Assembly (NCBI RefSeq): GCF_000016645.1
Contig: NC_009441.1
Location: 1,054,001-1,118,000 of the forward strand
DNA from: Flavobacterium johnsoniae UW101
GTDB lineage: Bacteria > Bacteroidota > Bacteroidia > Flavobacteriales > Flavobacteriaceae
Reading direction: 5' to 3'
DNA: 64,000 nt
Shown: positions 16,268 to 56,600 of the stretch, in pieces
How the letters are laid out: each line of letters starts with the position of its first letter
How positions within the stretch are numbered: the first letter of the stretch is position 1
Program-made: the position numbers and the translations under genes
The notes under the pieces: model-generated
Database searches by the model: none
Told to the model about the DNA's origin: nothing
Seen by the model: only the letters and a program-made list of their open reading frames with translations

Positions 16268-16284
16268 TCAAATTATGTTGTAAA

Positions 16285-16481
16285 GCTTCGGAGAAGCGAT
16301 ATATTAAAACGTAGAAAAATATGTCGCTCCTCCGGAGCTTTATCAATATCGCAAATTGAATTTTCTATAAATATGCCGCTCCTCCGGAGCTTTATGACAT
16401 TGTAAAATTAAATTCCTATAAATATATCGCTTCTCCGAAGCTTTATCATACTGTACATTGAATTTCTATAAATATCTACAG
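16285..16481. repeat. REP-type hairpins flanking the array, left side
   Basis: GCTTCGGAGAAGC, two copies of GCTCCTCCGGAGC and GCTTCTCCGAAGC occur at spacings of roughly 40-65 bp, separated by CTATAAATAT-containing spacers. They belong to the same family as the hairpins around the RAYT gene at 8949. Confidence 0.8.
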
Positions 16482-17721
16482 CATAACGTTTCGGAGAAAC
16501 GACATATTTATAGCAAACGATAAACATCCCCAACATAGAGCTCCAGCGGAGCGACATATATTAAAACGGTAGAAAAATATACCGCTCTTCCGAAGCTTTA
16601 TCATATTGTACATTGAATTTCTATAAACATCTACAGCATAACGTTTCGGAGAAACGAAATATTTATAGCAAACGATAAACATCCCCAACATAGAGCTCCA
16701 GCGGAGCGACATATATTAAAACGGTAGAAAAATATACCGCTCTTCCGAAGCTTTATCATATTGTATATTGAGTTTCTATAAATATCTACAACATAACGTT
16801 TCGGAGAAACGAAATATCTATAACAAACGATAAATATCCACAACATAGAGCTCCAGCGGAGCGACATATATTAAAACGGTAGAAAAATATACCGCTCTTC
16901 CGAAGCTTTATCATATTGTATATTGAATTTCTATAAATATTTACAGCATAACGTTTCGGAGAAACGAAATATTTATAGCAAACGATAAATATCCGTAACA
17001 TAAAGCTCCAGCGGAGCGACATATATTAAAACGGTAAAAAATATATCGCTACTCCGGAGCGTCATCATATTGTACATTGAATTTCTATAAACATCTACAG
17101 CATAACGTTTCGGAGAAACGAAATATTTATAGCAAACGATAAATATCCACAACATAGAGCTCCGGAGGAGCGACATATATTAAAACGGTAGAAAAATATA
17201 CCGCTCTTCCGAAGCTTTATCATATTGTACATTGAATTTCTATAAACATCTACAGCATAACGTTTCGGAGAAACGAAATATTTATAGCAAACGATAAATA
17301 TCCACAACATAGAGCTCCAGCGGAGCGACATATATTAAAACGGTAGAAAAATATACCGCTCTTCCGAAGCTTTATCATATTGTATATTGAATTTCTATAA
17401 ATATTTACAGCATAACGTTTCGGAGAAACGAAATATTTATAGCAAACGATAAATATCCACAACATAGAGCTCCAGCGGAGCGACATATATTAAAACGGTA
17501 GAAAAATATACCGCTCCTCCGGAGCTTTATCAATATTGTAAATTGAATTTCTATAAACATCTACAGCATAACGTTTCGGAGAAACGAAATATTTATAGCA
17601 AACGATAAATATCCACAACATAGAGCTCCGGAGGAGCGACATATATTAAAACGTAGAAAAATATGTCGCTCCTCCGGAGCTTTATCAATATTGCAAATTG
17701 AATTTTCTATAAATATACCGC
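16482..17721. repeat. Eight tandem units of about 155 bp built from REP hairpins
   Basis: The word CATAACGTTTCGGAGAAACG recurs at 16482, 16637, 16792, 16947, 17101, 17256, 17411 and 17567, giving spacings of 154-156 bp. Each unit carries three hairpins: CGTTTCGGAGAAACG, GCTCCAGCGGAGC (or GCTCCGGAGGAGC) and a GCTCTTCCGAAGC type. AT-rich spacers join them. Overlapping short frames on the minus strand repeat with the same period and are an effect of the repeat, not genes. Confidence 0.92.
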
Positions 17722-17832
17722 TCCTCCGGAGCTTTATGATACTGCAAATTGAATTCCTATAAACATCTGCTATAATATGTCGCTCCTCTGGAGCTCTACA
17801 TTGATTTTCTACAAATATTTTGCTCCGCTGGG
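17722..17832. repeat. REP-type hairpins flanking the array, right side
   Basis: GCTCCTCCGGAGC, GCTCCTCTGGAGC and a partial GCTCCGCTGGGG continue the family to the terminator of the leftward peptidase gene. Confidence 0.7.
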
Positions 17833-21022: not shown

Positions 21023-21262
21023 TTGCAGAATACAATCCATACCCTGAAAAAAGGCGATAAAGCCATTATCAAAGATTTTGATATCGATTTGATTCCTTTA
21101 AAATTATTAGAAATGGGTTGTCTGCCTGGCAGCTTAGTCGAACTGCTTCAAATTGCTCCTTTTGGAGATCCTCTATATCTAGACATTAACGGTTCGCATG
21201 TTGCTATTCGTGTTGAAACTGCTCGTGAAATTGAAGTTGAACTTATCCAAAACAATTTATAA
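21023..21262 (+). CDS. feoA: Ferrous iron transport protein A
   Basis: A 79-aa SH3-like protein (KKGDKAIIKDF..., LKLLEMGCLPGS, DPLYLDINGSHVAIR) that supports FeoB-mediated Fe(II) uptake at the cytoplasmic face. No ATG is available at the proper N-terminus, so a TTG start at 21023 is inferred from family alignment and the promoter about 27 bp upstream. Its stop overlaps the feoB start by one base (TAATG). Confidence 0.9.
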   Translation: MQNTIHTLKKGDKAIIKDFDIDLIPLKLLEMGCLPGSLVELLQIAPFGDPLYLDINGSHVAIRVETAREIEVELIQNNL

Positions 21263-23361
21263 TGAGCATTCAGAATATCAATGTTGCCCTTATTGGAAAC
21301 CCAAACACAGGAAAAACTTCTGTATTTAATCAGTTAACAGGTTTAAATCAACAAGTTGGGAATTATCCCGGAATTACGGTCGAGAAAAAAATCGGGTTTT
21401 GTAAATTACCTCAAAACATAAAAGCGAACATTCTCGATTTACCGGGAACGTATAGTTTGAATGCAAGTTCAATGGACGAAAGTGTGGTAATTGAACTTTT
21501 GCTCAACAAAAACGACAAATTATATCCGGATGTTGCCGTTGTGGTAACTGATGTTGAAAATCTAAAAAGAAATTTACTGATTTACACTCAGATAAAAGAC
21601 CTTGAAATTCCAACGATTTTGGTTATCAATATGTCTGATCGTATGGAAAGCAAAGGAATTTCATTAGATATTCCGTATTTAGAAGAAAAACTAAAAACCA
21701 AAATTGCTCTGGTAAGTTCGCGCAAAGGTTTAGGAATTGAAGAATTAAAAGAACTTATTGTTTCGTATAAAACGATCACGCATGAACCTTGCTTAAACGC
21801 TTCGGTAATTGATCCTGAATATTTTGAAAAACTGCAGCATGCTTTTCCAAATCAATTAATGTATAAATTGTGGCTGGTAATTACGCAGGATGTTAACTTT
21901 TCGAATTTAGACCGAAATGAAATCCGCAATACGTTTACCAAATCACATTCAGAGTTAAAACGTTTACAGCAAAAGGAAACCATCAAAAGATATCAGTTTA
22001 TAAATGATGTTTTAAAAGAAGGTTTAAAAGTTGATGCATCTGCTGCTACAGATTTCAGGGCAAAACTAGACCGTGTTTTAACCCACAAGTTTTGGGGTTA
22101 TGCTATTTTCCTTGGTATCTTATTTATTATTTTCCAATCGATTTTCAGCTGGTCAACTATTCCTATGGATTTTATTGATGCCAGTTTTGCTTCATTAAGC
22201 AGCTGGGTTTCTGAAGAACTGCCAAGCGGTATTTTAACCGATTTGCTTTCGCAGGGAATCATTCCGGGAATTGGCGGCGTTATTATTTTTATTCCGCAGA
22301 TTGCCTTTTTGTTCCTCTTTATTTCCATTCTCGAAGAAAGCGGTTATATGAGCCGTGTGGTATTTTTGATGGATAAAATAATGCGCAAATTTGGACTTTC
22401 CGGAAAAAGCGTTGTGCCATTAATTTCGGGAACGGCTTGTGCTATTCCGGCTATTATGGCAACCCGAAATATCGAGAACTGGAAAGAACGCCTAATTACG
22501 ATCTTAGTAACGCCATTCACGACTTGCTCGGCAAGATTACCGGTTTATGCAATTATGATTTCATTGGTAATTCCGAATAAACGAGTTCTTGGATTTTTAA
22601 ATCTTCAGGGATTATCCTTGATGTTACTGTATCTGTTAGGATTCGTAGCGGCGATAATCTCGGCTTATATTTTAAATAAAGTTTTAAAGCTGGATTCAAA
22701 AACGTATTTCGTTGTCGAAATGCCAAGTTATAAATTACCGCTTTTAAAGAATGTTGGAATTAATGTGGTAGAGAAAACCAAAGCTTTCGTTTTGGGTGCG
22801 GGTAAAATTATCTTAGCAATATCGGTTATTTTATGGTTTTTGGCTTCATTTGGTCCCGGAAAAGAATTTAATGATGCTGAGACTATTGTTAAAGAAAGAT
22901 TTGCAAATACCACTTTAGACGAAACTCAGTTTGAAAATGAAGTAGCTTCTCAAAAAATAGAAAACTCTTATATCGGGATTATGGGTAAAGCTATTGAGCC
23001 TGTAATTTCTCCTTTGGGTTACGACTGGAAAATAGGAATTGCGATTATCAGTTCGTTTGCAGCGCGTGAGGTTTTGGTTGGTACATTGGCGACAATTTAC
23101 AGTGTGGGAGACAGCGATAACGAATCGACTATTAAAAGCCGAATGCAGAAAGAAGTAAATCCGGAAACAGGCGAAAAGATATTTAACTTTGCAACCGGTA
23201 TTTCGTTATTGCTCTTTTATGCCTTTGCCATGCAGTGCGCCAGTACATTAGCGATTACCAAAAAAGAAACCAATTCATGGAAATGGCCTGTTATGCAGTT
23301 GTTTTTTATGACTGGACTGGCTTACATTTCGGCGCTTATAGCGTATCAATTTTTAAAGTAA
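21262..23361 (+). CDS. feoB: Ferrous iron transport protein B
   Basis: A 699-aa Fe(II) permease with an N-terminal G domain (G1 GNPNTGKTSVFNQLTG near residue 11, G3 DLPGTYSL near 59, NMSD near 123). The membrane part carries the Gate motifs, visible as VPLISGTACAIPAIMATR and FTTCSARLPVYA with the conserved cysteines. Length is typical of the Bacteroidota type. It is co-translated with feoA and followed after 6 bp by the small cysteine-rich membrane protein gene. Confidence 0.97.
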   Translation: MSIQNINVALIGNPNTGKTSVFNQLTGLNQQVGNYPGITVEKKIGFCKLPQNIKANILDLPGTYSLNASSMDESVVIELLLNKNDKLYPDVAVVVTDVENLKRNLLIYTQIKDLEIPTILVINMSDRMESKGISLDIPYLEEKLKTKIALVSSRKGLGIEELKELIVSYKTITHEPCLNASVIDPEYFEKLQHAFPNQLMYKLWLVITQDVNFSNLDRNEIRNTFTKSHSELKRLQQKETIKRYQFINDVLKEGLKVDASAATDFRAKLDRVLTHKFWGYAIFLGILFIIFQSIFSWSTIPMDFIDASFASLSSWVSEELPSGILTDLLSQGIIPGIGGVIIFIPQIAFLFLFISILEESGYMSRVVFLMDKIMRKFGLSGKSVVPLISGTACAIPAIMATRNIENWKERLITILVTPFTTCSARLPVYAIMISLVIPNKRVLGFLNLQGLSLMLLYLLGFVAAIISAYILNKVLKLDSKTYFVVEMPSYKLPLLKNVGINVVEKTKAFVLGAGKIILAISVILWFLASFGPGKEFNDAETIVKERFANTTLDETQFENEVASQKIENSYIGIMGKAIEPVISPLGYDWKIGIAIISSFAAREVLVGTLATIYSVGDSDNESTIKSRMQKEVNPETGEKIFNFATGISLLLFYAFAMQCASTLAITKKETNSWKWPVMQLFFMTGLAYISALIAYQFLK

Positions 23362-23367
23362 AATGTC

Positions 23368-23490
23368 ATGGTGCAAGAAATTATTGCCTTTTCTATATTA
23401 GGTATTGCCGTTGCTTTTTTGATCAGAAAGTTCTTTTGGAAATCAAAAAAGAAAAAAGACTGCGGCGACGGAAACTGTGGATGCAGTTAG
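23368..23490 (+). CDS. FeoB-associated Cys-rich membrane protein
   Basis: A 40-aa peptide starting MVQEIIAFSILGIAVAF, with one transmembrane helix, a basic stretch (KSKKKKDC) and a C-terminal cysteine cluster DCGDGNCGCS. This is the pattern of the small FeoB-associated proteins found directly after feoB. The cysteines could bind iron or sense redox state. The last 45 bp are duplicated at 24696-24740 with three changes, one of which would alter the last residue from Ser to Gly. Confidence 0.88.
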   Translation: MVQEIIAFSILGIAVAFLIRKFFWKSKKKKDCGDGNCGCS

Positions 23491-23561
23491 GTTTTTTTTC
23501 TAAGGTTCTAAGGTGCTGAGGTTCTAAGGTTCTGAGGTGCTAAGCTTCTAAGAATTCACAA
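23446..23561 (+). repeat. Direct repeat, left copy (att-like)
   Basis: It comprises the last 45 bp of the FeoB-associated gene, a run of Ts, CTAAGGT(T/G)-type heptamers and AATTCACAA. The right copy is at 24696-24829. The first 45 bp match with three substitutions; the heptamer part varies in copy number. Confidence 0.85.
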
Positions 23562-23844
23562 CTCATAACTCACAATTAATAATTCATAATTCATAATTAA
23601 CAATAACTATTTCAGACCATTAACGTCTTGTTTGTAAGTATTATCTGTTTTTATGTTTAATGAATACTTATTCAAATATCAAAATTTCATATAGTATACT
23701 ATTTACTTTATTAATCAATCAATTCCTTTAAAAACAATACTTTAGCACTTTTAATTATTCTATTTTTACGTTTTTTTTTAATAGTAAATAAAAAATTGAA
23801 AAAAAATGTCTTGCCAAATGTATGTTTTATACATCTACATTTTG

Positions 23845-23852
23845 TATGTTTG
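23845..23852 (+). promoter_or_regulatory. Putative -7 box of the antitoxin/GNAT pair
   Basis: TATGTTTG matches TAnnTTTG. The leader of about 105 bases contains a 7-bp hairpin (ATCTTTC / GAAAGAT, 23872-23895) that could serve as a control element. The rest of 23562-23840 is AT-rich with ATTCATAATT-type short repeats and no gene. Confidence 0.4.
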
Positions 23853-23962
23853 TCGAGTAATAAAACCGCATATCTTTCTTACAAAAACGAAAGATTAAAG
23901 TCAGTGCACACTAAAATGTGGTTTTCCGTACAAAAAAATTTATTAATCAAATATTCATCACA

Positions 23963-24124
23963 ATGGCAAAACCAATCAAAAATACTCCTGTTTTAAGAGG
24001 TAAAGAGGCCATTAACTTTTATAAATCTATTGATTCTAATAGAGATAAAAAAGTTAGTGCTGATACTTTGAATTCAATTAGAACTGACGCGAGTAAATTA
24101 AGAGAAATTCTAAAGGAAAAGTAA
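23963..24124 (+). CDS. Small antitoxin-like protein next to a GNAT
   Basis: A 53-aa basic, helical protein (MAKPIKNTPVLRGKEAINFY...) coded from the ATG at 23963; the frame is open further upstream but that part lacks a plausible start. Its stop overlaps the GNAT start by one base (TAATG), the arrangement of toxin-antitoxin operons with GNAT toxins. I do not recognise a known antitoxin domain, so the role is inferred from size, order and coupling. Confidence 0.6.
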   Translation: MAKPIKNTPVLRGKEAINFYKSIDSNRDKKVSADTLNSIRTDASKLREILKEK

Positions 24125-24695
24125 TGCCTTTAACTGGTTTTTCATTTTCAAAATTAAATACTACAACAAACATTCTTCCTTTTGAATGTGGAGACGATGA
24201 TTTGAATAGCTTCCTTAGCAATAAAGCTATTCCATATAAAAAAGAACTCTTAGCTACTACATATTTACTTGAAAGTGAAGATAAAACTATTGCTTATTTA
24301 AGTATTTACAATGATGCTTTAGCTGTTCAGGAAAAAGATTTCGCTTCAAAAGTACTTTCAATAGATTATTAAAAGAAATCATTTCTCATCCAAAAAGACA
24401 TTTACGACAATTCCCCGCAATTAAAATTGGAAGACTAGCTGTCTGTGAATCAACAAAAAAAGAGAGAAAAGGAATTGGCAGAGCGTTAGTGAATTTTGTT
24501 ATTAATTTAGCATTAGAACAAAACAGCAATTGCGCATGCCAACTAATAACTGTTGATGCTTATAGTCAATCATTAAATTTTTACACAAAACTAGGATTCA
24601 AGTTTCTTTCAGATAGTGATAAAGGAGATGATACGAGACAAATGTATCTTGACCTTAGACCACTAATGAATACAGCGTATGATATATCTGCATAG
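24124..24695 (+). pseudogene. Frameshifted GNAT acetyltransferase (toxin-like)
   Basis: The first frame gives 82 residues with the N-terminal pattern of GNAT toxin-like proteins (FECGDDDLNSFLSNKA, TYLLESEDKTIAYLS) and stops at 24370-24372. The rest of the domain continues in the -1 frame: IKIGRLAV, then the acetyl-CoA loop KKERKGIGRALV, then SLNFYTKLGFKF. A single missing base in the A-run at 24348-24351 would restore about 190 aa. Programmed -1 slippage on that run or a sequencing error are alternatives. The partner antitoxin-like gene remains intact. Confidence 0.75.
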
Positions 24696-24829
24696 AAAAA
24701 GAAAAAAGACTGCGGCGACGGAAACTGCGGGTGCGGTTAGTTTTTTTTCTAAGGTGCTGAGGTTCTTCTAAGGTGCTAAGGTGCTAAGATGCTAAGGTTC
24801 TAAGGTGCTAAGCTTCTAAGAATTCACAA
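24696..24829 (+). repeat. Direct repeat, right copy (att-like), truncated gene end
   Basis: AAAAAGAAAAAAGACTGCGG... repeats the 3' end of the FeoB-associated gene without its 5' part, starting 3 bp after the stop codon of the GNAT remnant (24693-24695 ends its frame). It is followed by the same CTAAGGTG heptamers and AATTCACAA. The offset from the left copy is 1,250 bp. Confidence 0.85.
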
Positions 24830-24860
24830 TTAATAATTCACAATTAACAATTAACAATTA

Positions 24861-24905
24861 AAAAAAGCTGCTTCATAGGTAATTCTATGAAGCAGTTTTT
24901 TTTTA
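24861..24905 (+). terminator. Rho-independent terminator, probably the original feo terminator
   Basis: The hairpin GCTGCTTCATAG / CTATGAAGCAG is flanked by A- and T-runs. It follows the right copy of the duplication, as expected if the cassette was inserted between the feo operon and its terminator. Confidence 0.85.
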
Positions 24906-25032: not shown

Positions 25033-25989
25033 ATGAGAAAAATTGCACTATTATTATTATTTAACTACGGCTTTATGTCTGCGCAGACTAAAACGGTAGT
25101 TACTGTATATGGAGAAAAAGTAACCATTAACCCTAACGGGATTGGTGATAATTTAGGAAATCATACTGCTACAACGACATTAAATTTGAATAACAACAAC
25201 ATCGATAATGTCTCAACCATTTTTGTAAAAAAAGAAGCCCGGCTGTTAGATAAAAATGCAGGAAACAGTAATTATTTTTCTATAAATAAAAACAATGCCA
25301 TTTTTGGAATTTACAATTCGCTAACGGCCGGCAATGCTTTATCAATAAGCGAAACAAGTTCTAAAACTACATTTGTTACAACGCAGATAACAAAAGGTAC
25401 AGACGGATCATTGCCTCAAAAAGACAATGTGCTGACATCTACAGATACAAATGGAAACACTGCCTGGACACCTTTAATTAAAGTTAAAAATGCTTTAACC
25501 TTTCAGTTCCTTAACTACAGTACGGGCAGCTCTCAATACAATGCAGCCGCGTTTAACGAGGTTCCCGGTTTAACGGTTACCTATACAGCACCCGCTACAG
25601 GAGTCCTAAACCTATGTGCTAATTTGTATAGTATGGTTCCAAACGGTGTGGTGACCAAAACCCCAACCTCTGTTAAAACCGAAATGCACATTACCCTAAC
25701 GTCTTCTTCGGTTGGAAACGATATCCTTGGAGGTGGTGCATCTACCATTACAACAGCACTGCCTTCGGCTTTTACTAACGGCGGCGGAAACTTTCCTGCT
25801 GTTACCACCATTATATCCCAAATGCCTGTAACAGAAGGGCAGACCTACACCTTTACGGTTCTGGCCAAAACAGCAGATACCACGACTGCCGGTGTGGGCA
25901 GTGCTGTAGGAAATTATACAAACGGCTCTGTTACGACCTATTCAACGCTAATGGGAACTCTAGCCACAGATCCAGGCTATTTTCGTTAA
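25033..25989 (+). CDS. Secreted protein, first of three paralogues
   Basis: A 318-aa protein with a signal peptide (MRKIALLLLFNYGFMSAQ). The N-terminal half holds DNLGNHTATTTLNLNNNNI and IYNSLTAGNALSISETSS, also found in the two following genes. The C-terminal half is Thr/Gly-rich and reads as a beta-sandwich (PGLTVTYTAPATGVLNLCAN, PVTEGQTYTFTV). Similar LGNHTAT segments occur in Bacteroidota surface and tail-fibre-like proteins. No type IX C-terminal signal was seen, so its final location is unclear. No enzymatic function is suggested. Confidence 0.75.
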   Translation: MRKIALLLLFNYGFMSAQTKTVVTVYGEKVTINPNGIGDNLGNHTATTTLNLNNNNIDNVSTIFVKKEARLLDKNAGNSNYFSINKNNAIFGIYNSLTAGNALSISETSSKTTFVTTQITKGTDGSLPQKDNVLTSTDTNGNTAWTPLIKVKNALTFQFLNYSTGSSQYNAAAFNEVPGLTVTYTAPATGVLNLCANLYSMVPNGVVTKTPTSVKTEMHITLTSSSVGNDILGGGASTITTALPSAFTNGGGNFPAVTTIISQMPVTEGQTYTFTVLAKTADTTTAGVGSAVGNYTNGSVTTYSTLMGTLATDPGYFR

Positions 25990-26033
25990 CAAGTGAAATG
26001 TTTTTAGTTTTTTTAAAGAATTTCTTAGAGATT

Positions 26034-26102
26034 AAAAATGTCTTTTTTACTGCTTATCAGCTTTTAAATACTCTTACACAAAAACGGTTCAAAATACTTT
26101 TG
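26034..26102 (+). promoter_or_regulatory. Conserved upstream element plus -7 box, second secreted paralogue
   Basis: AAAAATGTCTTTTTTAC at about 26035 precedes the -7 box TACTTTTG at 26095-26102. The GTC-to-box distance is 55 bp. Confidence 0.5.
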
Positions 26103-26137
26103 TCCGTTTTAAATAAAATCATTTATATAAACTTATT

Positions 26138-27085
26138 ATGAAAAAAATAGCATTACTCATAGTACTCAACTGCGGCCTAATGTGCGCGCAGACCAAAACC
26201 CTAGTTACGATTAATGGAGAAAGGATAACCATAGACCCGAATGCCGGCGGCGACAATTTAGGAGACCATACTGCCACCACAACATTAAATCTCGATACAC
26301 ACGATATTAGCAGCGCCGCCACTGCTTTTATTAAAAAAGACGCGCAGTTTTTTGACACCAATACGGCCAACAGTAATACTTTTACCGTAAACAAAAACAA
26401 CGGTACTTTTGGTATTTACAATTCCAGTGCTGGAGCCAATGCCTTATCTATAAACGAAACCAGCTCTAAAACGACTGTAGTAAGTGCCCAAATAAAACAA
26501 GGCGCAGATTCGCCTGCCTCAACACCAGATAACAGTTATGTAGCGGTTGCGGGCGATACCAATGGAAATGTAAGCTGGAAACCTTTATACAAAGTAAAAG
26601 GCGCTACAACTGACATCACTCAAATCTACTCTATAGACTTTACAAAAATCAATACCTCAACTTTCACTCCTATTGGTAATTTTAGCATGCGTTTAACTGC
26701 ACCTGCTACAGGAGTACTCTATATTAAAGCTGCTATGATTAATTTCATTATGCTTGCCTATACAACGCCAACATCTATTAAAACCGAAATGGTTATTGCG
26801 GTAAATGGAGTACCCATACCTGAAGGTTATGGTGTTTCTTTTATTACAACAGGCGCCACTTCGGCCTATGCAAATAAAACGAATTATCATCCTACTTCTA
26901 CGAATATCTATTGCCTGTATCCCGTAACAGAAGGACAAACCTACATTTTTTCGGTTATGGCCCGTGTCGCAGATTATACAGATAGTGCTGCTCTTCCATT
27001 CAATTATGTTGGCACATATGTCCCAACAGATAGAACAGATAAATATTATAACTCAAGAATGCAAGCAACTCTAGTTGCAGACTAG
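26138..27085 (+). CDS. Secreted protein, second of three paralogues
   Basis: A 315-aa relative of the preceding gene, with signal peptide MKKIALLIVLNCGLMCAQ and the shared blocks DNLGDHTATTTLNL, FGIYNSSAGANALSINETSS and LTAPATGVLYIKA. The N-terminal half is closely conserved, while the C-terminal half diverges in loop lengths, as expected if it carries the variable binding surface. It has its own upstream element and -7 box rather than being read from the first gene. Confidence 0.75.
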   Translation: MKKIALLIVLNCGLMCAQTKTLVTINGERITIDPNAGGDNLGDHTATTTLNLDTHDISSAATAFIKKDAQFFDTNTANSNTFTVNKNNGTFGIYNSSAGANALSINETSSKTTVVSAQIKQGADSPASTPDNSYVAVAGDTNGNVSWKPLYKVKGATTDITQIYSIDFTKINTSTFTPIGNFSMRLTAPATGVLYIKAAMINFIMLAYTTPTSIKTEMVIAVNGVPIPEGYGVSFITTGATSAYANKTNYHPTSTNIYCLYPVTEGQTYIFSVMARVADYTDSAALPFNYVGTYVPTDRTDKYYNSRMQATLVAD

Positions 27086-27227
27086 TATACTTTTTACAAA
27101 AAGCTTCTTTAAAGAAACGTAATACACAAAGCCGGGCAGAAACCATTTTTTACAAATTTTTTGCGACTCTAACAAATTCTTATTTCTTTTCTGCCCGCTT
27201 TATATAACTCATTAAGATAAAATTATT

Positions 27228-28166
27228 ATGAAAAAAATAGCATTTTTACTCGTACTCAGCAGTGCCTTTATGTCTGCACAAATTAAAACTGTACTAAGCC
27301 CATACGGCGAAAAAGTAAACATAAATCTCAGCCCGCCGGGCGATAATTTAGGAAATCATACTGCCACTACAACCTTAAATTTAAATAATAATGATATTAG
27401 TAATATAGCTGATATTTATATTAAAAAAGAAGCCCAATTTTTAGATCAAAGCGGCACCAACACTAATTATTTTTCATTAAAAAAAGACAACGGTACTTTT
27501 GGCATTTACAATTCACTTGTTGGAAGCAATGCCTTGTCTATAGACGAAACCACCTCTAAAACTACCGTGGTTTCTGCACAAATACCAAAAGGTACAGATG
27601 CCTCACTGCCGCAGAAAGATGATATAGCGGTTTCTACCGATGCAAACGGAAACGTAATCTGGAAACCTCTAGTGAGAATTAAAGGCGCCACCATGTTCCA
27701 GTTTTTCGTTAGGGCAGATCAAAATTCAAAATTTAACTCTGCGGTTTTTAATCCTGTTTCCAGAATGGAAAACATTCCTTATACTGCTCCTGTAAACGGG
27801 GTATTGTATCTTGAGGCCAATTTAATTTCTACCGTTCCGGATATTTTTCTTACCAAAAGCCCAACGGTGGTTAAAACCGAAATGGCAGTTATGGTAGACG
27901 GTACACCTATTGGGTATGGTTCTTCTTTAATTACTACAGCACCAGTTTCTACTTTTGCCAATAAAACAGATCTCTTTCCAGCCACTACCACTATTTACTG
28001 CCAGATACCGGTAACAGAAGGAACAACCTACAGCATTTCTGTTCAGGCCAGAACACCAGACCAGACCAATGGCGGCAGCTATGTGGGACTTTACAAAGGT
28101 AAAGATTCTGACGGAGGTCCTACTGCTATACTATCATCCTTGATGGGAACACTGGTTACAGACTAG
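27228..28166 (+). CDS. Secreted protein, third of three paralogues
   Basis: A 312-aa protein, signal peptide MKKIAFLLVLSSAFMSAQ, with DNLGNHTATTTLNLNNNDI, FGIYNSLVGSNALSIDETTS and the same beta-rich C-terminal half (PYTAPVNGVLYLEANL, IPVTEGTTYSISV). It differs from its relatives in lacking the conserved upstream element. The spacer before it instead contains an inverted pair CGGGCAGAAA / TTTCTGCCCG at about 27133-27205. The gene may be read from the second paralogue or from an unrecognised promoter. Confidence 0.75.
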   Translation: MKKIAFLLVLSSAFMSAQIKTVLSPYGEKVNINLSPPGDNLGNHTATTTLNLNNNDISNIADIYIKKEAQFLDQSGTNTNYFSLKKDNGTFGIYNSLVGSNALSIDETTSKTTVVSAQIPKGTDASLPQKDDIAVSTDANGNVIWKPLVRIKGATMFQFFVRADQNSKFNSAVFNPVSRMENIPYTAPVNGVLYLEANLISTVPDIFLTKSPTVVKTEMAVMVDGTPIGYGSSLITTAPVSTFANKTDLFPATTTIYCQIPVTEGTTYSISVQARTPDQTNGGSYVGLYKGKDSDGGPTAILSSLMGTLVTD

Positions 28167-44600: not shown

Positions 44601-47600
44601 CTCTGCTTGATGTATTTGTTCCGGCAGCACAAACATATTGTGTTACAAGAGGAGCATCTACAACAATTGGAGCCGGCTCATCTACTGTAATTGTAGCTGT
44701 ACCTGGACAACCTCTTCCTGAAGTTACTGAAACAGTGTATGTACCAGCTGACAATCCTGAGAATAAAGTACTGTCCTGAGGTCCAACTGTTAACGGTACA
44801 CCCGCTATCGTAGCTGTTAAAGTATATCTATAAATAGGGTTATTATTCGAAGCATCTAATTCAACCGAAATTGTTCCATCAGAACCGCCATTACAAGACA
44901 CTGCTGTTGGTTTTAACGTAATTCCAGTAACAACTGTAGCGTTTTCAATAATCTGAGTTACTTCTTTTTCACAATTTGTTACAATATCTCTTACTCTGAA
45001 AGTATAACTTCCAGGAGCTAAACCTCCAAAGACTGGACTAGATTGAGATGTTGCCCAATTATTCATTGTGTAAACATAACTGCTTGGAGTAGAAACTGTT
45101 CCACCAGAAGCAAACAATGTTATATCTCCACTAGGGTTGTTACAAACCGGAGTAAGCGTAATTTCAGAACGTAATTCAAGTGGTGCTAAAATTGGCACAG
45201 TAACTGTGTTACCGCATCCGTTTTTATCTTTTATCTCAATTGTATGACTGCCTGATGATAAGCCCGTGATGCTGAATGGTGCCGTACGTGACTGGAAGGC
45301 GCCGCCGTCAACACTAAATGTATATGGCGAAACTCCTGCTGTTGGAACCGTAACATTAATCACAAAGTTACCCTCTGTAACATTACACTGTGCAGCTAAC
45401 ACTGCAGCCACAACTGGTGAAGGGTCTAAACCAAGTATAACATTTACTGAACTTGGACAATCTCTTGAATCTTTTACATAAACTGTATAGTTTCCAGATT
45501 CTGCATTTAAGGTAGTAACAGTACTCCATCCTGCATCTGTTACCAAAGGAGCCGGGCTTCCTTGTGGTAAAATCTGGTAGTAATATGGTGCTGTTCCGCC
45601 ATGACCCTCTGCAATGATCTGTCCGGCATTTGTACCGCAGTTATCATTAACTGTTGAAGCTGTTACCGAAACTGCTTCACTTGGAGAACCAATCGTTACA
45701 GCGTTTGTGGTTACTGAACAGTACGGACTTGCCGTTTCTGTTACAACAACTGTATAGTTTCCTGCTGATAATCCTGAAATACTTCTTGGATTTACAGTAG
45801 TATCTGATCCTATAGGTCCCATTACTGATGTACCGGCACTGTTAAATACCTCATAAGTATAAGCTCCTGTATAACCTGTAACATTGATTGCTAATGCTCC
45901 ATTAGCATCGCCAAAACAGTTTACCGGTGTAGTTGCTGTCGCAACTGCTTTAATCGTATTATAAGGTGCTACTCTGAATACCGGAGCATCAAAATAACAA
46001 TCTGTATCGTTATCAATTACTCTAAAGTAATAATCTCCAGGGGCTGTAATTCCAAAGAAATTATCTACCTGAGGCGCTCCGCTTGGCAGAAGCTGATAAC
46101 TAAAGTTACCTGAACCTCCTAAAACAGTGATATCTGCTCTACCATTATTTAAACAGTCAATAGCCGTTCCTGCAACTGTAACAGTCGTAATTCTTGTAAG
46201 TCTAGTGATCAGAACTGATCCAATAGCAGAACATCCATTAGCATCTTTTACATAAACCGGAAGGTTATAAGTTGTACCGTTATCTGCAACAGTAAAGGTA
46301 TTTGTTGGATAAAAATCAACATTATTAATACTGTATGTATAATCTCCAAATCCACCTGAACCATTTATTGTTACTATAGTTGTATTCGTAGAATTATCAG
46401 GCGCACATTTAAACGGTGCCGCTGCTGATGAAGCATCAACTGAAAGAACAGGAGGCTGTCCTACCGTTATTGTCTGAGGTGTACTACAGCCTAATCTGCC
46501 TGAAGCAACACTAATGCTGTAATCTCTCGCTGATAATCCTGTAAACAAATTACTTGTCTGAGGACCTACAACTAAAGCAGGACCTGAAAGCGCTGTTAAA
46601 GTATAAGTATAAACAGGGTCTGTATTACCTGCACCTAAAGTAACTTTAATTGTTCCGTTGCTTCCACCGTTACAGCTCACATCTGTTGGAGAAGCTGTAA
46701 AGTTTACAGGTGCCGGTGATGTCAATAGAATTGGTTTAACCAAAGCACATGTTGTTGTAACATCAGTAACTCTTACCTGGTAACTTCCTGCCGCAACTGC
46801 ATTAAATACATTAGAAGCCTGAGGACCTGCAAGTACAGTTGATGCTGATGCATCTAATAACTCATAGCTGTAAGTAGATGATCCTCCTGCAGCAGTTACT
46901 GTTATCTGACCGTCATTATTTGGACATGTCGGAAGGGCTGTAACCTCTGGTGTAAATCCTAATGGTTTTAAAATTGGTACAGTAACTGTGTTACCGCATC
47001 CGTTTTTATCTTTTATCTCAATTGTATGACTGCCTGATGATAAGCCCGTGATGCTGAATGGTGCCGTACGTGACTGGAATGCCCCGCCGTCAACACTAAA
47101 GGTATATGGCGAAACTCCTGCTGTTGGAACCGTTACATTAATCACAAAACTGCCCTCTGCAACATTACACTGTGCAGCCAATACTGCTGCCACAACTGGT
47201 GAAGGGTCTAAACCAAGTATAACATTTACTGAACTTGGACAATCTCTTGAATCTTTTACATAAACTGTATAGTTTCCAGATTCTGCATTTAAGGTAGTAA
47301 CAGTACTCCATCCTGCATCTGTTACCAAAGGAGCCGGGCTTCCTTGTGGTAAAATCTGGTAGTAATATGGTGCTGTTCCGCCATGACCCTCTGCAATGAT
47401 CTGTCCGGCATTTGTACCGCAGTTATCATTAACTGTTGAAGCTGTTACCGAAACTGCTTCACTTGGAGAACCAATCGTTACAGCGTTTGTGGTTACTGAA
47501 CAGTACGGACTTGCCGTTTCTGTTACAACAACTGTATAGTTTCCTGCTGATAATCCTGAAATACTTCTTGGATTTACAGTAGTATCTGATCCTATAGGTC

Positions 47601-50600
47601 CCATTACTGATGTACCGGCACTGTTAAATACCTCATAAGTATAAGCTCCTGTATAACCTGTAACATTGATTGCTAATGCTCCATTAGCATCGCCAAAACA
47701 GTTTACCGGTGTAGTTGCTGTCGCAACTGCTTTAATCGTATTATAAGGTGCTACTCTGAATACCGGAGCATCAAAATAACAATCTGTATCGTTATCAATT
47801 ACTCTAAAGTAATAATCTCCAGGGGCTGTAATTCCAAAGAAATTATCTACCTGAGGCGCTCCGCTTGGCAGAAGCTGATAACTAAAGTTACCTGAACCTC
47901 CTAAAACAGTGATATCTGCTCTACCATTATTTAAACAGTCAATAGCCGTTCCTGCAACTGTAACAGTCGTAATTCTTGTAAGTCTAGTGATCAGAACTGA
48001 TCCAATAGCAGAACATCCATTAGCATCTTTTACATAAACCGGAAGGTTATAAGTTGTACCGTTATCTGCAACAGTAAAGGTATTTGTTGGATAAAAATCA
48101 ACATTATTAATACTGTATGTATAATCTCCAAATCCACCTGAACCATTTATTGTTACTATAGTTGTATTCGTAGAATTATCAGGCGCACATTTAAACGGTG
48201 CCGCTGCTGATGAAGCATCAACTGAAAGAACAGGAGGCTGTCCTACCGTTATTGTCTGAGGTGTACTACAGCCTAATCTGCCTGAAGCAACACTAATGCT
48301 GTAATCTCTCGCTGATAATCCTGTAAACAAATTACTTGTCTGAGGACCTACAACTAAAGCAGGACCTGAAAGCGCTGTTAAAGTATAAGTATAAACAGGG
48401 TCTGTATTACCTGCACCTAAAGTAACTTTAATTGTTCCGTTGCTTCCACCGTTACAGCTCACATCTGTTGGAGAAGCTGTAAAGTTTACAGGTGCCGGTG
48501 ATGTCAATAGAATTGGTTTAACCAAAGCACATGTTGTTGTAACATCAGTAACTCTTACCTGGTAACTTCCTGCCGCAACTGCATTAAATACATTAGAAGC
48601 CTGAGGACCTGCAAGTACAGTTGATGCTGATGCATCTAATAACTCATAGCTGTAAGTAGATGATCCTCCTGCAGCAGTTACTGTTATCTGACCGTCATTA
48701 TTTGGACATGTCGGAAGGGCTGTAACCTCTGGTGTAAATCCTAATGGTTTTAAAATTGGTACAGTAACTGTGTTACCGCATCCGTTTTTATCTTTTATCT
48801 CAATTGTATGACTGCCTGATGATAAGCCCGTGATGCTGAATGGTGCCGTACGTGACTGGAATGCCCCGCCGTCAACACTAAAGGTATATGGCGAAACTCC
48901 TGCTGTTGGAACCGTTACATTAATCACAAAACTGCCCTCTGCAACATTACACTGTGCAGCCAATACTGCTGCCACAACTGGTGAAGGGTCTAAACCAAGT
49001 ATAACATTTACTGAACTTGGACAATCTCTTGAATCTTTTACATAAACTGTATAGTTTCCAGATTCTGCATTTAAGGTAGTAACAGTACTCCATCCTGCAT
49101 CTGTTACCAAAGGAGCCGGGCTTCCTTGTGGTAAAATCTGGTAGTAATATGGTGCTGTTCCGCCATGACCCTCTGCAATGATCTGTCCGGCATTTGTACC
49201 GCAGTTATCATTAACTGTTGAAGCTGTTACCGAAACTGCTTCACTTGGAGAACCAATCGTTACAGCGTTTGTGGTTACTGAACAGTACGGACTTGCCGTT
49301 TCTGTTACAACAACTGTATAGTTTCCTGCTGATAATCCTGAAATACTTCTTGGATTTACAGTAGTATCTGATCCTATAGGTCCCATTACTGATGTACCGG
49401 CACTGTTAAATACCTCATAAGTATAAGCTCCTGTATAACCTGTAACATTGATTGCTAATGCTCCATTAGCATCGCCAAAACAGTTTACCGGTGTAGTTGC
49501 TGTCGCAACTGCTTTAATCGTATTATAAGGTGCTACTCTGAATACCGGAGCATCAAAATAACAATCTGTATCGTTATCAATTACTCTAAAGTAATAATCT
49601 CCAGGGGCTGTAATTCCAAAGAAATTATCTACCTGAGGCGCTCCGCTTGGCAGAAGCTGATAACTAAAGTTACCTGAACCTCCTAAAACAGTGATATCTG
49701 CTCTACCATTATTTAAACAGTCAATAGCCGTTCCTGCAACTGTAACAGTCGTAATTCTTGTAAGTCTAGTGATCAGAACTGATCCAATAGCAGAACATCC
49801 ATTAGCATCTTTTACATAAACCGGAAGGTTATAAGTTGTACCGTTATCTGCAACAGTAAAGGTATTTGTTGGATAAAAATCAACATTATTAATACTGTAT
49901 GTATAATCTCCAAATCCACCTGAACCATTTATTGTTACTATAGTTGTATTCGTAGAATTATCAGGCGCACATTTAAACGGTGCCGCTGCTGATGAAGCAT
50001 CAACTGAAAGAACAGGAGGCTGTCCTACCGTTATTGTCTGAGGTGTACTACAGCCTAATCTGCCTGAAGCAACACTAATGCTGTAATCTCTCGCTGATAA
50101 TCCTGTAAACAAATTACTTGTCTGAGGACCTACAACTAAAGCAGGACCTGAAAGCGCTGTTAAAGTATAAGTATAAACAGGGTCTGTATTACCTGCACCT
50201 AAAGTAACTTTAATTGTTCCGTTGCTTCCACCGTTACAGCTCACATCTGTTGGAGAAGCTGTAAAGTTTACAGGTGCCGGTGATGTCAATAGAATTGGTT
50301 TAACCAAAGCACATGTTGTTGTAACATCAGTAACTCTTACCTGGTAACTTCCTGCCGCAACTGCATTAAATACATTAGAAGCCTGAGGACCTGCAAGTAC
50401 AGTTGATGCTGATGCATCTAATAACTCATAGCTGTAAGTAGATGATCCTCCTGCAGCAGTTACTGTTATCTGACCGTCATTATTTGGACATGTCGGAAGG
50501 GCTGTAACCTCTGGTGTAAATCCTAATGGTTTTAAAATTGGTACAGTAACTGTGTTACCGCATCCGTTTTTATCTTTTATCTCAATTGTATGACTGCCTG

Positions 50601-53600
50601 ATGATAAGCCCGTGATGCTGAATGGTGCCGTACGTGACTGGAATGCCCCGCCGTCAACACTAAACGTATATGGCGAAACTCCTGCTGTTGGAACCGTAAC
50701 ATTGATCACAAAACTGCCCTCTGTAACATTACACTGCGCAGCCAATACTGCTGCCACAACTGGTGTAGGATCTAAAGGAATAACTTTAACTGCTGCCGGC
50801 TGAATACAACCATTAGCATCTTTAGCGTAGGCAATGTAATTTCCTGCAGCTAAATTGAAAGAGCTGCCGTCTACCCAAGCATCACCTGCTGTTGGTGCTG
50901 GTGCTGTATCTGATAATACTAAATATTTATATGGAGCCGTACCACCTTGAGCAGAAACACTAATATTTCCTAATTCATTACAGTTTTGATTTTTATTTAC
51001 TGTTGCATTAACTAAAACTGGAACAACAGACTGTGTAATTGTAAATGTTCTAGATGAATTTGTACAACCAGGAGTTGAACCTCCAACTTCTGTAAATAAA
51101 ATATAATATGTTCCTGGAACAAGAGGACCTGCTGTCTGTACCGGGCTGGTAACATTTCCATTCAATCCAGTAACAGAACCTGTAATAGCAGGAACTACTG
51201 GTTGATTAGTCTGAGAATTATAAACTTGATAATTTACAGTTGTTGTTGTTGTATAGTTTTTCGTAAATGTAAACGAAACACTTCCGTCTCCAGCATTCAT
51301 ACAAGTTACATTTGACTCTGTAAGATCACTTGTTAATGTCGATAAAGTAGGTGTTTTTGTGTCTGCCTGTTTAAAGAAATAACAATTTGTTGATTCATCA
51401 TAAACAATGAAAGAATATAAAACTCCAGGATTTAATCCTGTAAAAGTAGATTTTAATAAATCTGGATCTCCAGGTGATGCTGGCGGTGATACCGCATCTG
51501 CATCCTGATAAGATGCTGAATATGTTGCATAATCGTAATTATTTGGATTAGCAGGATCAACAGGATATAATGCAAAATGATATGGTCCTCCAGGAATTGG
51601 CGGTGTTACACTTACTACAATAGTTGCAGAAGTACATGATGGTGTACCTTGCGTAACATCAATAATCATATCTTCAGGTGGTGAAGCGATATTAATAGTT
51701 TTTGTAACAGAACAACCGTTAAAATCAGTAACTGTTAATTCGTATATACCAAAATTTAAAATTTGGAAACTATGATTTTCTCTGCCATCAGGAGTAAACG
51801 TTTGTGTTGGGCTTGTATTACTAGTTAAAGTATAAATAAATCCAGATTTAGCAGGTAAAGCTAGTCCTGAAGTTGTACCACCTGCTAAGGCAGTTACACC
51901 AATTGAACCTAAAGCTGTACCAGCACCTCCACCAATACATTTAATCTGTTGAATATCTTCTGTGAAAACAATCGGATCTGGTTGTGCAATACTTACATTT
52001 CTATTTAAAGAACATCCATTAGCATCAGTTACAGTAACAATGTAATCACCACCTGGAAGACCAGTTGTTTGAGTACCGTAATTTACATTTGGTGTTCCTA
52101 ATGCCGTATTGTCTTTTACCACATTTATTACATATGGACCAACTCCAACTGTTGTATCAATATTTACATTGATAGATCCAGTTTCCTGACCGCTGCAATA
52201 AATAAGATTTCCTTGAACTGCTGTAAAATCAGGATTTGTCTTAGGCTGAACAACAACTGTTGAAGTTGCGTTACAACCTGAATTATCTGTAAATGTAAAT
52301 AAATAGGTTGTTGTTGTTGTTGCTGTAACTGCTGTAGCATCTGTATAAGTAAATGTAGTTCCTGCTACAGTATGCACAGTTGGATCTAAAGTTCCATTTA
52401 TTGTTACAGTATAATTATAATTTGCTGTACCTCCGTTTATTGTACCATCAATAGTGATATTTGGAGAAGTACATTTTGGACCGTCTGTTAAAACTGTTGC
52501 TACAGTAAATTCATTAGCAATAGTCTGAGCAATAGCTGTAGAAGTACATCCAAAAGCATCTTTTACCAAAACAGTGTAGCTTCCCGGAAGAAGATTCGCA
52601 AAAGTACCGCTTGACTGGTAGCTTGTTCCATTATTGATACTGTACTGGTATGGACCAACTCCACCTGAAGCTGTAACTGTTATTGTTGCCTGGTTATTAG
52701 CATCATAACAAATATCAGATCCTGCAATACTTGCCGACGGAGCTGAAGGTGTGCTTAATGTAAATGTGCTTGAAGCAATACAGTTATTCGCATCTGTAAC
52801 ATTGGCTGTATAGCTTCCTGTCTGAGTCAGATTCGCAAAAGTACCTGTATTCTGAGGACCTAAAACTGTTCCGTCTGGCTGAGTTAAACTATAAGTGTTT
52901 CCTCCCCAGCCTCCTGAAGCTGTCAGAACAACACTTCCCGGCGCATCACAAGTGATTGCAGAAGGTGTATTGTTTAATGTTAAAGCTGCTGCCGGAGCTG
53001 TAATAGTTACAGAAGCCGATGCTTTACAGTTAGTTGCTGTATTAGTAATTTCAACAGTGTAAGTACCTGCCGCCAATCCTGTTAAGCTGATTGGTGAAGT
53101 ACCTGCTCCCTGTGAAACTGTATTTAATGTATAAGTAAATCCTGTTGAACCTGAAACGGTAAACTGTGCTGTTCCTGTTGATGAACCAAAACACTGAACA
53201 TTAGTGTGGGTGCCCACAACCGTTAAAGCTGGAAGAGGTGCAACTGTATATGAATCTTCATATTTACAGCCTTTTGCATCTGTAACTTCAAACTTGTAGG
53301 TTCCCGGATCTAAATTAGTAAAAGTACCTGTAGTTAATCCTGATGTGTTCCCTGAAGCTGAAGCTGGCTCAACAATACGATAGCTTAATGCTCCTGACCC
53401 GCCTGTAGTTGTTACTGTTATACTTACTTTATTTGTAGGACAGCTTAAGGCTGTATTACTGAAGCTTAATGCCGTTGGAGGCGTTAATGGATCCAGAGTT
53501 ACAGGCGCTAATGTGTTTGTACAATTATTAGCATCTCTAACCGTAATTGTATAAGTGCCATTTGTTAATCCTGTAAAAGTAGTACCGGCCTGGAATGTGG

Positions 53601-56600
53601 TGCCATTAATACTGTACTGGTAAGTTCCTGTTCCGCCTGATATGCTTGTTACTGTAATACTTCCTGTCTGTAAACAAGTGTAAGGTGTAAATGAAGTGGT
53701 TCCCGTTATAGGATCCGGCTGGCTTAAAGTAATAGTACCAGGTGCTGATAAACACTGGTTAAAATCTCTTACCTGATATGAATAAGAAACTCCTGCTGAT
53801 AAACCGGTATAAAAGGACTGGTTTGAGAAAGCTCCTCCGTTAAAACTAAACATATACGGACCCACTCCGCCTGAACCTGATAACTGTACTGAACCATTAG
53901 TACCCCCATTACATGTAGGATCAACCGGTGCAGCTGATGCAATAACCGGAACTAAAGCATCTATTTTAACTGATGTAGAAACAGCCGGACAGTTGTTAAC
54001 ATCATTAACTTGAAACTGATACTCTCCTGCTGTTGTTGTGTCGTATGTAAAAGTAGTTCCTGTAACTGCTCCTAATGATGTATAAGCACCTCCGTTAACA
54101 GAAACGCTGTAAGTATAAGGTGCAGTTCCGCCAGAAATTGTTCCTGTAATTCTCGCTGCCGGAGGTGTCTTACAGTCTAATGTTTTTGTTAGTACTGCAT
54201 CAACCTGAAGCTGATTTGCAATAACCTGAGCAATAGCTGTAGAAGTACATCCAAAAGCATCTTTTACCAAAACAGTGTAGCTTCCCGGAAGAAGATTCGC
54301 AAACGTATTACCAGACTGGTAGCTTGTTCCATTATTGATACTGTACTGGTATGGACCAACTCCACCTGAAGCTGTAACTGTTATTGTTGCCTGGTTATTA
54401 GCATCATAACAAATATCAGATCCTGCAATACTTGCCGACGGAGCTGAAGGTGTACTTAAGGTAAATGTGCTTGAAGCAATACAGTTATTTGCATCTGTAA
54501 CATTTGCAGTATAATTTCCTGTCTGAGTCAGGTTTGCAAAAGTACCTGTATTCTGAGGACCTAAAACTGTTCCATCTGGCTGAGTTAAACTATAAGTGTT
54601 TCCTCCCCAGCCTCCTGCAGCTGTCAGAACAACACTTCCCGGCGCGTCACAAGTGATTGCAGAAGGTGTATTGTTTAATGTTAAAGCTGCTGCCGGAGCT
54701 GTAATAGTTACAGAAGCCAATGCTTTACAGTTAGTTGCTGTATTAGTAATTTCAACAGTGTAAGTACCTGCCGCCAATCCTGTTAAGCTGATTGGTGAAG
54801 TACCTGCTCCCTGTGAAACTGTATTTAATGTATAAGTAAACCCTGTTGAACCTGAAACGGTAAACTGTGCTGTTCCTGTTGATGAACCAAAACACTGAAC
54901 ATTAGTGTGGGTGCCCACAACCGTTAAAGCTGGAAGAGGTGCAACTGTATATGAATCTTCATATTTACAGCCTTTTGCATCTGTAACTTCAAACTTGTAG
55001 GTTCCCGGATCTAAATTAGTAAAAGTACCTGTAGTTAATCCTGATGTGTTCCCTGAAGCTGAAGCTGGCTCAACAATACGATAGCTTAATGCTCCTGACC
55101 CGCCTGTAGTTGTTACTGTTATACTTACTTTATTTGTAGGACAGCTTAAGGCTGTATTACTGAAGCTTAATGCCGTTGGAGGCGTTAATGGATCCAGAGT
55201 TACAGGCGCTAATGTGTTTGTACAATTATTAGCATCTCTAACCGTAATTGTATAAGTGCCATTTGTTAATCCTGTAAAAGTAGTACCGGCCTGGAATGTG
55301 GTGCCATTAATACTGTACTGGTAAGTTCCTGTTCCCCCTGATGTGCTTGTTACTGTAATACTTCCTGTCTGTAAACAAGTGTAAGGTGTAAATGAAGTGG
55401 TTCCCGTTATAGGATCCGGCTGGCTTAAAGTAATAGTACCAGGTGCTGATAAACACTGGTTAAAATCTCTTACCTGATATGAATAAGAAACTCCTGCTGA
55501 TAAACCGGTATAAAAGGACTGGTTTGAGAAAGCTCCTCCGTTAAAACTAAACATATACGGACCCACTCCGCCTGAACCTGATAACTGTACTGAACCATTA
55601 GTACCCCCATTACATGTAGGATCAACCGGTGCAGCTGATGCAATAACCGGAACTAAAGCATCTATTTTAACTGATGTAGAAACAGCCGGACAGTTGTTAA
55701 CATCATTAACTTGAAACTGATACTCTCCTGCTGTTGTTGTGTCGTATGTAAAAGTAGTTCCTGTAACTGCTCCTAATGATGTATAAGCACCTCCGTTAAC
55801 AGAAACGCTGTAAGTATAAGGTGCAGTTCCGCCAGAAATTGTTCCTGTAATTCTCGCTGCCGGAGGTGTCTTACAGTCTAATGTTTTTGTTAGTACTGCA
55901 TCAACCTGAAGCTGATTTGCAATAACCTGAGCAATAGCTGTAGAAGTACATCCAAAAGCATCTTTTACCAAAACAGTGTAGCTTCCCGGAAGAAGATTCG
56001 CAAACGTATTACCAGACTGGTAGCTTGTTCCATTATTGATACTGTACTGGTATGGACCAACTCCACCTGAAGCTGTAACTGTTATTGTTGCCTGGTTATT
56101 AGCATCATAACAAATATCAGATCCTGCAATACTTGCCGACGGAGCTGAAGGTGTGCTTAATGTAAATGTGCTTGAAGCAATACAGTTATTCGCATCTGTA
56201 ACATTGGCTGTATAGCTTCCTGTCTGAGTCAGATTCGCAAAAGTACCTGTATTCTGAGGACCTAAAACTGTTCCATCTGGCTGAGTTAAACTATAAGTGT
56301 TTCCTCCCCAGCCTCCTGCAGCTGTCAGAACAACACTTCCCGGCGCGTCACAAGTGATTGCAGAAGGTGTATTGTTTAATGTTAAAGCTGCTGCCGGAGC
56401 TGTAATAGTTACAGAAGCCAATGCTTTACAGTTAGTTGCTGTATTAGTAATTTCAACAGTGTAAGTACCTGCCGCCAATCCTGTTAAGCTGATTGGTGAA
56501 GTACCTGCTCCCTGTGAAACTGTATTTAATGTATAAGTAAACCCTGTTGAACCTGAAACGGTAAACTGTGCTGTTCCTGTTGATGAACCAAAACACTGAA

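Follow-up and report, generated by a model that had tools for sequence, protein, structure and literature searches.

A toxin-antitoxin-like gene pair between two copies of a gene end behind feoB of Flavobacterium johnsoniae UW101, probably inserted by illegitimate joining

Tyrosine-recombinase islands integrate in the 3' ends of genes, where the gene end is restored and the old end is displaced. Insertion with long target duplication was described for restriction-modification genes of Helicobacter pylori by Nobusato, Uchiyama, Ohashi, and Kobayashi in 2000, according to PMC1643837 and PMC3031569. A toxin-antitoxin review cites the H. pylori work where it states that restriction-modification systems share the addiction and apparent mobility of toxin-antitoxin systems (PMC2654758). 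Homology-facilitated illegitimate recombination is reported from three naturally competent species and from conjugation in E. coli (PMC3240628).

Here we examine a window of 64,000 nucleotides, positions 1,054,001-1,118,000 of the single-contig, 6,096,872-bp genome of F. johnsoniae UW101, in which a small gene pair stands between two copies of a gene end behind feoB. We consider "insertion with long target duplication" the best label for this locus. As in that class of event, a small selfish-type unit adjoins a long target duplicate (146 and 164 bp here), the insert carries neither transposase nor integrase, and the insertion was detected against relatives without the insert. Unlike in the H. 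pylori cases, the unit is a toxin-antitoxin-like pair and not a restriction-modification system, the host is a Flavobacterium, the duplicate holds a gene end together with a repeat array, and the comparison is across species rather than strains. The likeness to elements that integrate in gene 3' ends is that the feo gene end is restored and the old one displaced; the locus differs from them in that the insert has no integrase frame and the other sites of the pair share no att site. Homology-facilitated illegitimate recombination, with one homologous and one illegitimate side, would likewise give a displaced end. However, the donor arrangement, in which the pair would follow feo with no second gene end, was absent from all 31 feo loci read, and PMC7965970 reports that F. 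johnsoniae lacked natural competence in the conditions of its test, so that DNA would have had to enter by conjugation or in some other way.

All features of the feo locus lie on the plus strand. A feoA-like gene (21023-21262) is located 5' of feoB (21262..23361, 699 amino acids); both are open reading frames whose names were taken over from the initial annotation and not from a family search. The last 253 residues of FeoB are matched at E ≤ 1e-60 in 243 of 249 genomes of the genus, its own genome counted. Downstream of feoB is a small cysteine-rich gene (23368..23490) encoding 40 amino acids that end in KKKKDCGDGNCGCS. It has no match in Pfam or NCBIfam, and it is present at the same place in the feo loci of all 29 relatives searched. 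As the initial annotation had noticed, the last 45 bp of this gene recur 1,250 bp downstream with three substitutions (42 of 45 positions agree). The left copy (23446..23490) belongs to the working gene; the right, displaced copy (24696..24740) starts directly after the stop codon of the inserted GNAT gene, inside an A-rich run that is common to the tail of the cassette. Both copies are followed by a T-run, by arrays of CTAAGGTx and by AATTCACAA, an arrangement that had also been recognized before, except that the array units are octamers and not heptamers. The left array (CTAAGGTK units) occupies 23500..23552 and is followed by an AT-rich repeat to approximately 23591-23605; the right array occupies 24749..24820, with the AT-rich repeat reaching approximately 24859. 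According to BLAST, the duplicated homology with gaps comprises 23446-23591 and 24696-24859 (146 and 164 bp; 80% identity over 164 columns). Judged by eye, the left duplicate perhaps reaches about 23605, and in total the left and right copies share approximately 150-160 bp, gapped. They differ at 3 of 45 nucleotides in the gene end and by indels in the array. The repeat of the feo gene end exceeds chance: the best second match to 33 nucleotides 3' of the small gene is 30/33 in the window, compared with 15-18/33 in the loci of the 29 relatives.

The octamer arrays belong to a family with members scattered through the genome. When gene end, array and AT-rich repeat were combined in a query of 141 nt, at least 53 matches were obtained, both feo copies among them, a lower bound because 40 of 106 candidates were scored; two of the 53 cover just the AT-rich part of the query. 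Several of the dispersed arrays form closely spaced inverted pairs, for example at 4727257/4727338 and 5638708/5638826. Of 29 relatives, 7 have octamer cores 3' of the small gene, compared with 0.6% of random 100-nt windows (plus strand of the window), which suggests that the array behind the small gene is probably old. A native-type terminator, consisting of a long hairpin and then a T run (24860..24903, plus strand; -25 kcal/mol, z -9.6), is found after the right copy only, and the 200 nt behind the left copy contain no hairpin of terminator type. This bears out the earlier proposal that the original feo terminator lies behind the right copy. Further downstream, three tandem paralogous proteins of 312-318 amino acids with signal-like starts are encoded at 25033-28166, the first two preceded by an alike stretch containing AAAAATGTCTTTTTT; a similar stretch (AAAATGTCTTAT) comes after the feo terminators of several relatives. 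Elsewhere in the window, 16281-17766 is a tandem array with units of approximately 155 bp and hairpin-like sequence (CTCCGGAGC), and 45173-50792 and 52513-57359 are very long tracts in which units of 1782 and 1701 bp follow one another in tandem at 98-99% identity.

The inserted DNA comprises approximately 1.09 kb (23606..24695, plus strand); its left border can be placed to within about 15 bp. Positions 23712-24706 have relatives in other species, at other sites. Apart from the part shared with Flavobacterium sp. HTF, the first stretch of the insert (23606-23711, about 106 bp) had no convincing relative in 16 genomes, the matches being weak, AT-rich and at E values of about 0.001 or more. An intact antitoxin-like gene of 53 amino acids (23963..24124, plus strand) lies inside a longer GTG frame, and its end is overlapped by a GNAT toxin-like gene (24124..24695, plus strand). 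The initial annotation had placed an antitoxin-like and a GNAT toxin-like gene between the copies. The pair is indeed present, but the GNAT gene is broken here by a frameshift: its open frames 24124-24372 and 24489-24695 differ in frame, whereas the gene is one intact frame of 190 amino acids in Flavobacterium sp. HTF and in F. ginsenosidimutans. We propose that the GNAT gene has decayed since insertion. Among the frames of the insert, family scans covered the antitoxin-like gene and both parts of the GNAT gene. The GNAT parts and the intact HTF protein match Pfam acetyltransferase models, and the closest solved sequence to the latter is KacT (E = 0.001). The 53-aa protein has no match in Pfam, PADLOC or NCBIfam, and no recognized antitoxin family was found upstream of the GNAT gene. 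The pair thus resembles type II GNAT systems such as KacT in this match of the intact HTF protein and in the small ORF overlapping the GNAT start codon, and differs from them in a 53-aa partner that belongs to no family model and in the broken GNAT frame of the window. We regard it as a putative toxin-antitoxin-like pair. Besides the antitoxin-like and GNAT frames, the only frame of at least 60 amino acids in the insert is one of 66 (TTG start, 23796-23996), which overlaps the start of the antitoxin-like gene; none of the frames encodes an integrase or transposase, in agreement with the earlier reading that an integrase is missing. In a narrow literature search, the one paper found for toxin-antitoxin and GNAT genes in F. 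johnsoniae is, by its title, on Stenotrophomonas.

To compare the site with that of other genomes, all of them from other species, we read the 29 feo loci that scored best by FeoB besides the window, and those of HTF and F. ginsenosidimutans. A single gene end without the cassette was observed in 31 of 31 loci, and thus the arrangement of the window is not one that all relatives share. By a strict test, 20 of the 29 relatives have a terminator-like hairpin in the 200 nt that follow the small gene, and nine did not pass. In HTF and F. ginsenosidimutans, the single gene end is followed by a hairpin, and the best second match is 19/33 and 18/33, respectively. A strict gene-end pattern, applied to 398 Flavobacterium genomes, matched twice here and once in each of 49 genomes; the other 348 genomes contain no match and carry no information either way. 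Different cargo between two feo ends, which the initial annotation had expected in other strains, was not seen in the 29 loci or in the pattern search, which is silent for 348 of the 398 genomes. These comparisons support the view that, measured against other species, DNA was inserted at the 3' end of this gene; the left copy preserves the complete gene and the right one is the displaced end. To this extent the initial reading of an integration into a gene 3' end stands, with a restored end on the left and a displaced end on the right; its att and integrase part is not supported.

Among 249 genomes, 10 others carry both genes of the pair, in different surroundings. In 8 of these 10, FeoB is encoded on a different contig or at a distance of over 1 Mb; G146 and G241 are the two without a listed FeoB position. 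A scan of named genomes for the pair gave 18 loci, seven of which were used (L100, L101 and L106-L110), L102-L105 being taken as genomes already counted and L111-L117 having an identity of 42% or less. The closest cassettes are those of Flavobacterium sp. HTF and F. ginsenosidimutans. The DNA identity to HTF is 94.6% for the GNAT gene and 93.8% for the antitoxin gene, compared with 79.3% for the feoB part; the corresponding values for F. ginsenosidimutans are 89.0%, 90.7% and 80.4%. HTF shows a clear contrast between cassette and core; in F. ginsenosidimutans the contrast is weak, because other core stretches of this species are 84-91% alike to the genome of the window. The genome closest by FeoB (G102, 96% of residues) carries the pair elsewhere, at only 78% alike. 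Judged by these identities, above all 94.6% in the GNAT gene against 79.3% in feoB with HTF, the pair is horizontally acquired and has moved between species. Carriage by a phage or plasmid was rejected: no relative was found on viral contigs, and among plasmids and phages the intact HTF GNAT has matches of at most 35% identity.

The homology of the cassette extends from 23712 to 24706 with HTF and from 23763 to 24705 with F. ginsenosidimutans, in both cases past the GNAT stop codon into an A-rich tail. Between this tail and the lysine codons of the small feo gene (AAAAAGAAAAAA) there is an overlap, and AAAAGAAAAA is common to the HTF tail and the lysine run. The right joint is situated among these lysine codons, 5' of the octamer array. 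Since the A-rich tail of the cassette itself overlaps the lysine run, the joint has the look of a microhomology joint of about 10 nt. This is suggestive, although the identity is A-rich and of low complexity in a genome that is A-rich too, and could be coincidence. The left joint, for which no mechanism could be named, counts against the reading that follows. We consider it likely that a horizontally acquired antitoxin/GNAT pair was inserted behind the small feo gene by illegitimate joining, the right joint having probably been made at the approximately 10 identical A-rich bases of cassette tail and lysine codons. After the insertion, the left copy would have preserved the gene, the right copy would be the displaced end, and the GNAT gene would have decayed later. 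The route of joining and the order of steps are inferred.

Integration by a site-specific recombinase, as the initial annotation had proposed, would involve a non-autonomous cassette, an att site formed by the 3' end of the small gene and the array, and an integrase supplied in trans. A restored gene end with a displaced old one is the expected product of such an event, and the insertion is missing in relatives. We nevertheless consider it unlikely. When direct repeats were sought around the pair at 17 other loci, in flanks of 1.5 kb (just 263 bp downstream in L100), 12 loci had none, two had repeats of 17-19 nt and three had unrelated repeats of 36-86 nt. These three are L084 (G126:C1:217000-227500), where an 86-bp direct repeat (92% identity) flanks the pair and the sequence is also present upstream of the pair in L083; L086, with terminator-like repeats of 41 and 37 bp; and L108, with a 36-bp repeat at 78%. 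None of the repeats at the 17 loci is the feo gene end, and no shared att core was found. No gene-end-like sequence adjoins the cassettes of HTF and F. ginsenosidimutans, two ends were observed in just 1 of the 50 genomes with a pattern match, the insert has no integrase frame, and the two copies differ by 3 of 45 nucleotides and by indels in the array. An att site at the gene end thus finds no support, given that the same pair occurs elsewhere without the feo end and that the right joint coincides with the cassette's own A-rich tail; neither does mobilization in trans by an integrase, from what the insert and the other locations of the pair show. The expectation that the same pair would be found elsewhere with flanking repeats of its own did not hold for 12 of the 17 loci.

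The dispersal of octamer arrays in the genome, and how often they follow the small gene (7 of 29 relatives; 0.6% for random windows), are what could be expected if a circle or fragment of the form array-cassette-array had entered by homologous recombination between arrays. The duplicate, however, starts 54 bp upstream of the array, in the coding region, and a crossover between arrays gives no gene end before the right array unless the donor carried one. The right joint in the lysine run, upstream of the array, also speaks against this idea of the initial annotation, and we judge it improbable. A right copy without the 5' part of the gene would likewise result if the small gene or its end had been duplicated in tandem and the pair had then landed in the second copy, deleting its front. 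This is very improbable in our view: the first 78 nt of the small gene left no trace in the 4 kb downstream, where only the last 45 nt recur, two copies were seen in none of the relatives, and two events would be required. For lack of a 5' remnant, the right copy is also unlikely to be what is left of a full tandem duplication of the small gene, the explanation that the initial annotation had put forward as an objection to its own proposal.

A scan for copies of gene ends behind genes covered 2.01 Mb of the 6.10-Mb genome, the scanned part including 16 kb of N; it produced 19 candidate genes, and all 19 were examined. An orphan end copy of at least 45 nt was found only for the small feo gene and for one other gene, which we take to be FabF-like. 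The remaining candidates were rejected: full-length or near-full paralogous matches at 2139833, 2443974, 2729029, 3005851, 1648556, 1704278, 1750348, 2809222 and 2810190, a paralogous match in part behind the gene at 1588209, a paralogous match over the last 965 of 5040 nt at 1344533, tandem-repeat arrays at 1071095, 1071405, 1278263 and 2605635, three copies of 34-36 nt at 2606617, and one match of 24 nt at 2064322. The recG locus (1370004-1370991) was a candidate third case, its repeat consisting, however, of a terminator and a leader-like stretch with a further copy elsewhere. The recG region matched little in 8 relatives, the adjoining DNA resembles a gene fragment by eye, and we regard this locus as ambiguous. 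As a separate observation outside the window, the recG-end repeat (G000:C1:1369940-1371060; 80 bp, 95%) surrounds a 207-aa gene and fragment-like DNA, and a longer form of it seems to be present near recG in G209 (L258).

The FabF-like end duplication is located on the minus strand at 1236390-1237326 (within G000:C1:1235363-1238397), outside the window. The order is FabF-like gene, DUF5984 gene, copy of the last 69 nt of the FabF-like gene (63/69 identical), RhuM gene; DUF5984 and RhuM were assigned by family search. Seven other genomes that carry both flanks on one contig have a single end of the FabF-like gene. In one of these, G205, the conserved gene that follows lies about 96 bp from the FabF-like gene. 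In each of the other six, the stretch behind the FabF-like gene measures 0.5-1.07 kb and holds reading frames of another sort, mostly of different kinds; in two of the six, we presume from its motif that one of them is Fic-like. Compared with F. ginsenosidimutans, the displaced end differs at 2 and the working end at 4 of 69 positions. Among the codons changed between the two ends, 4 of 5 are synonymous, compared with 23-35% expected under neutral change. The two ends therefore look like different alleles, each of which may have existed as coding sequence until the two met, by the small numbers available. The feo copies differ in 3 codons, two synonymously and one not, too few to separate a donor allele from an aged self-copy. 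Unlike the FabF ends, the two feo copies differ less between themselves, at 3 of 45 positions, than either does from the end of any of 25 relatives (at least 6 differences, ungapped), a comparison from which 4 of the 29 relatives are missing as their ends do not match the search expression.

Two routes of illegitimate joining can be envisaged. In homology-facilitated illegitimate recombination, incoming DNA carrying a feo end would have recombined homologously on the left and illegitimately on the right, and the left end would come from the donor and the right end from the recipient. In template switching, a replication fork would have jumped to the cassette and then back to an upstream point, and both ends would be copied from one. 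The FabF case favours homology-facilitated illegitimate recombination, because its displaced and working ends look like different alleles; the feo case does not decide.

How small defence and toxin genes spread without mobility genes of their own is an open question on which the feo case touches. The scar was known from restriction-modification genes of H. pylori, and here the same scar accompanies a toxin-antitoxin-like pair in Flavobacterium. From the FabF-like locus of this genome it appears that a displaced end can be another allele. If this allele reading holds, displaced ends would reveal such gains in any genome and name the donor lineage. As a tentative and rather doubtful extension, the 3' ends of Flavobacterium core genes might be recurrent docking points at which single defence- or toxin-type genes are swapped without an integrase, displaced ends being the fossils of these exchanges: homologous exchange in the core gene would import the cargo, and illegitimate joining would strand the old end behind it. 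If true, displaced gene ends would constitute a readable record of cargo turnover at sites such as those behind feoB and the FabF-like gene, the latter with cargo in six of seven genomes.
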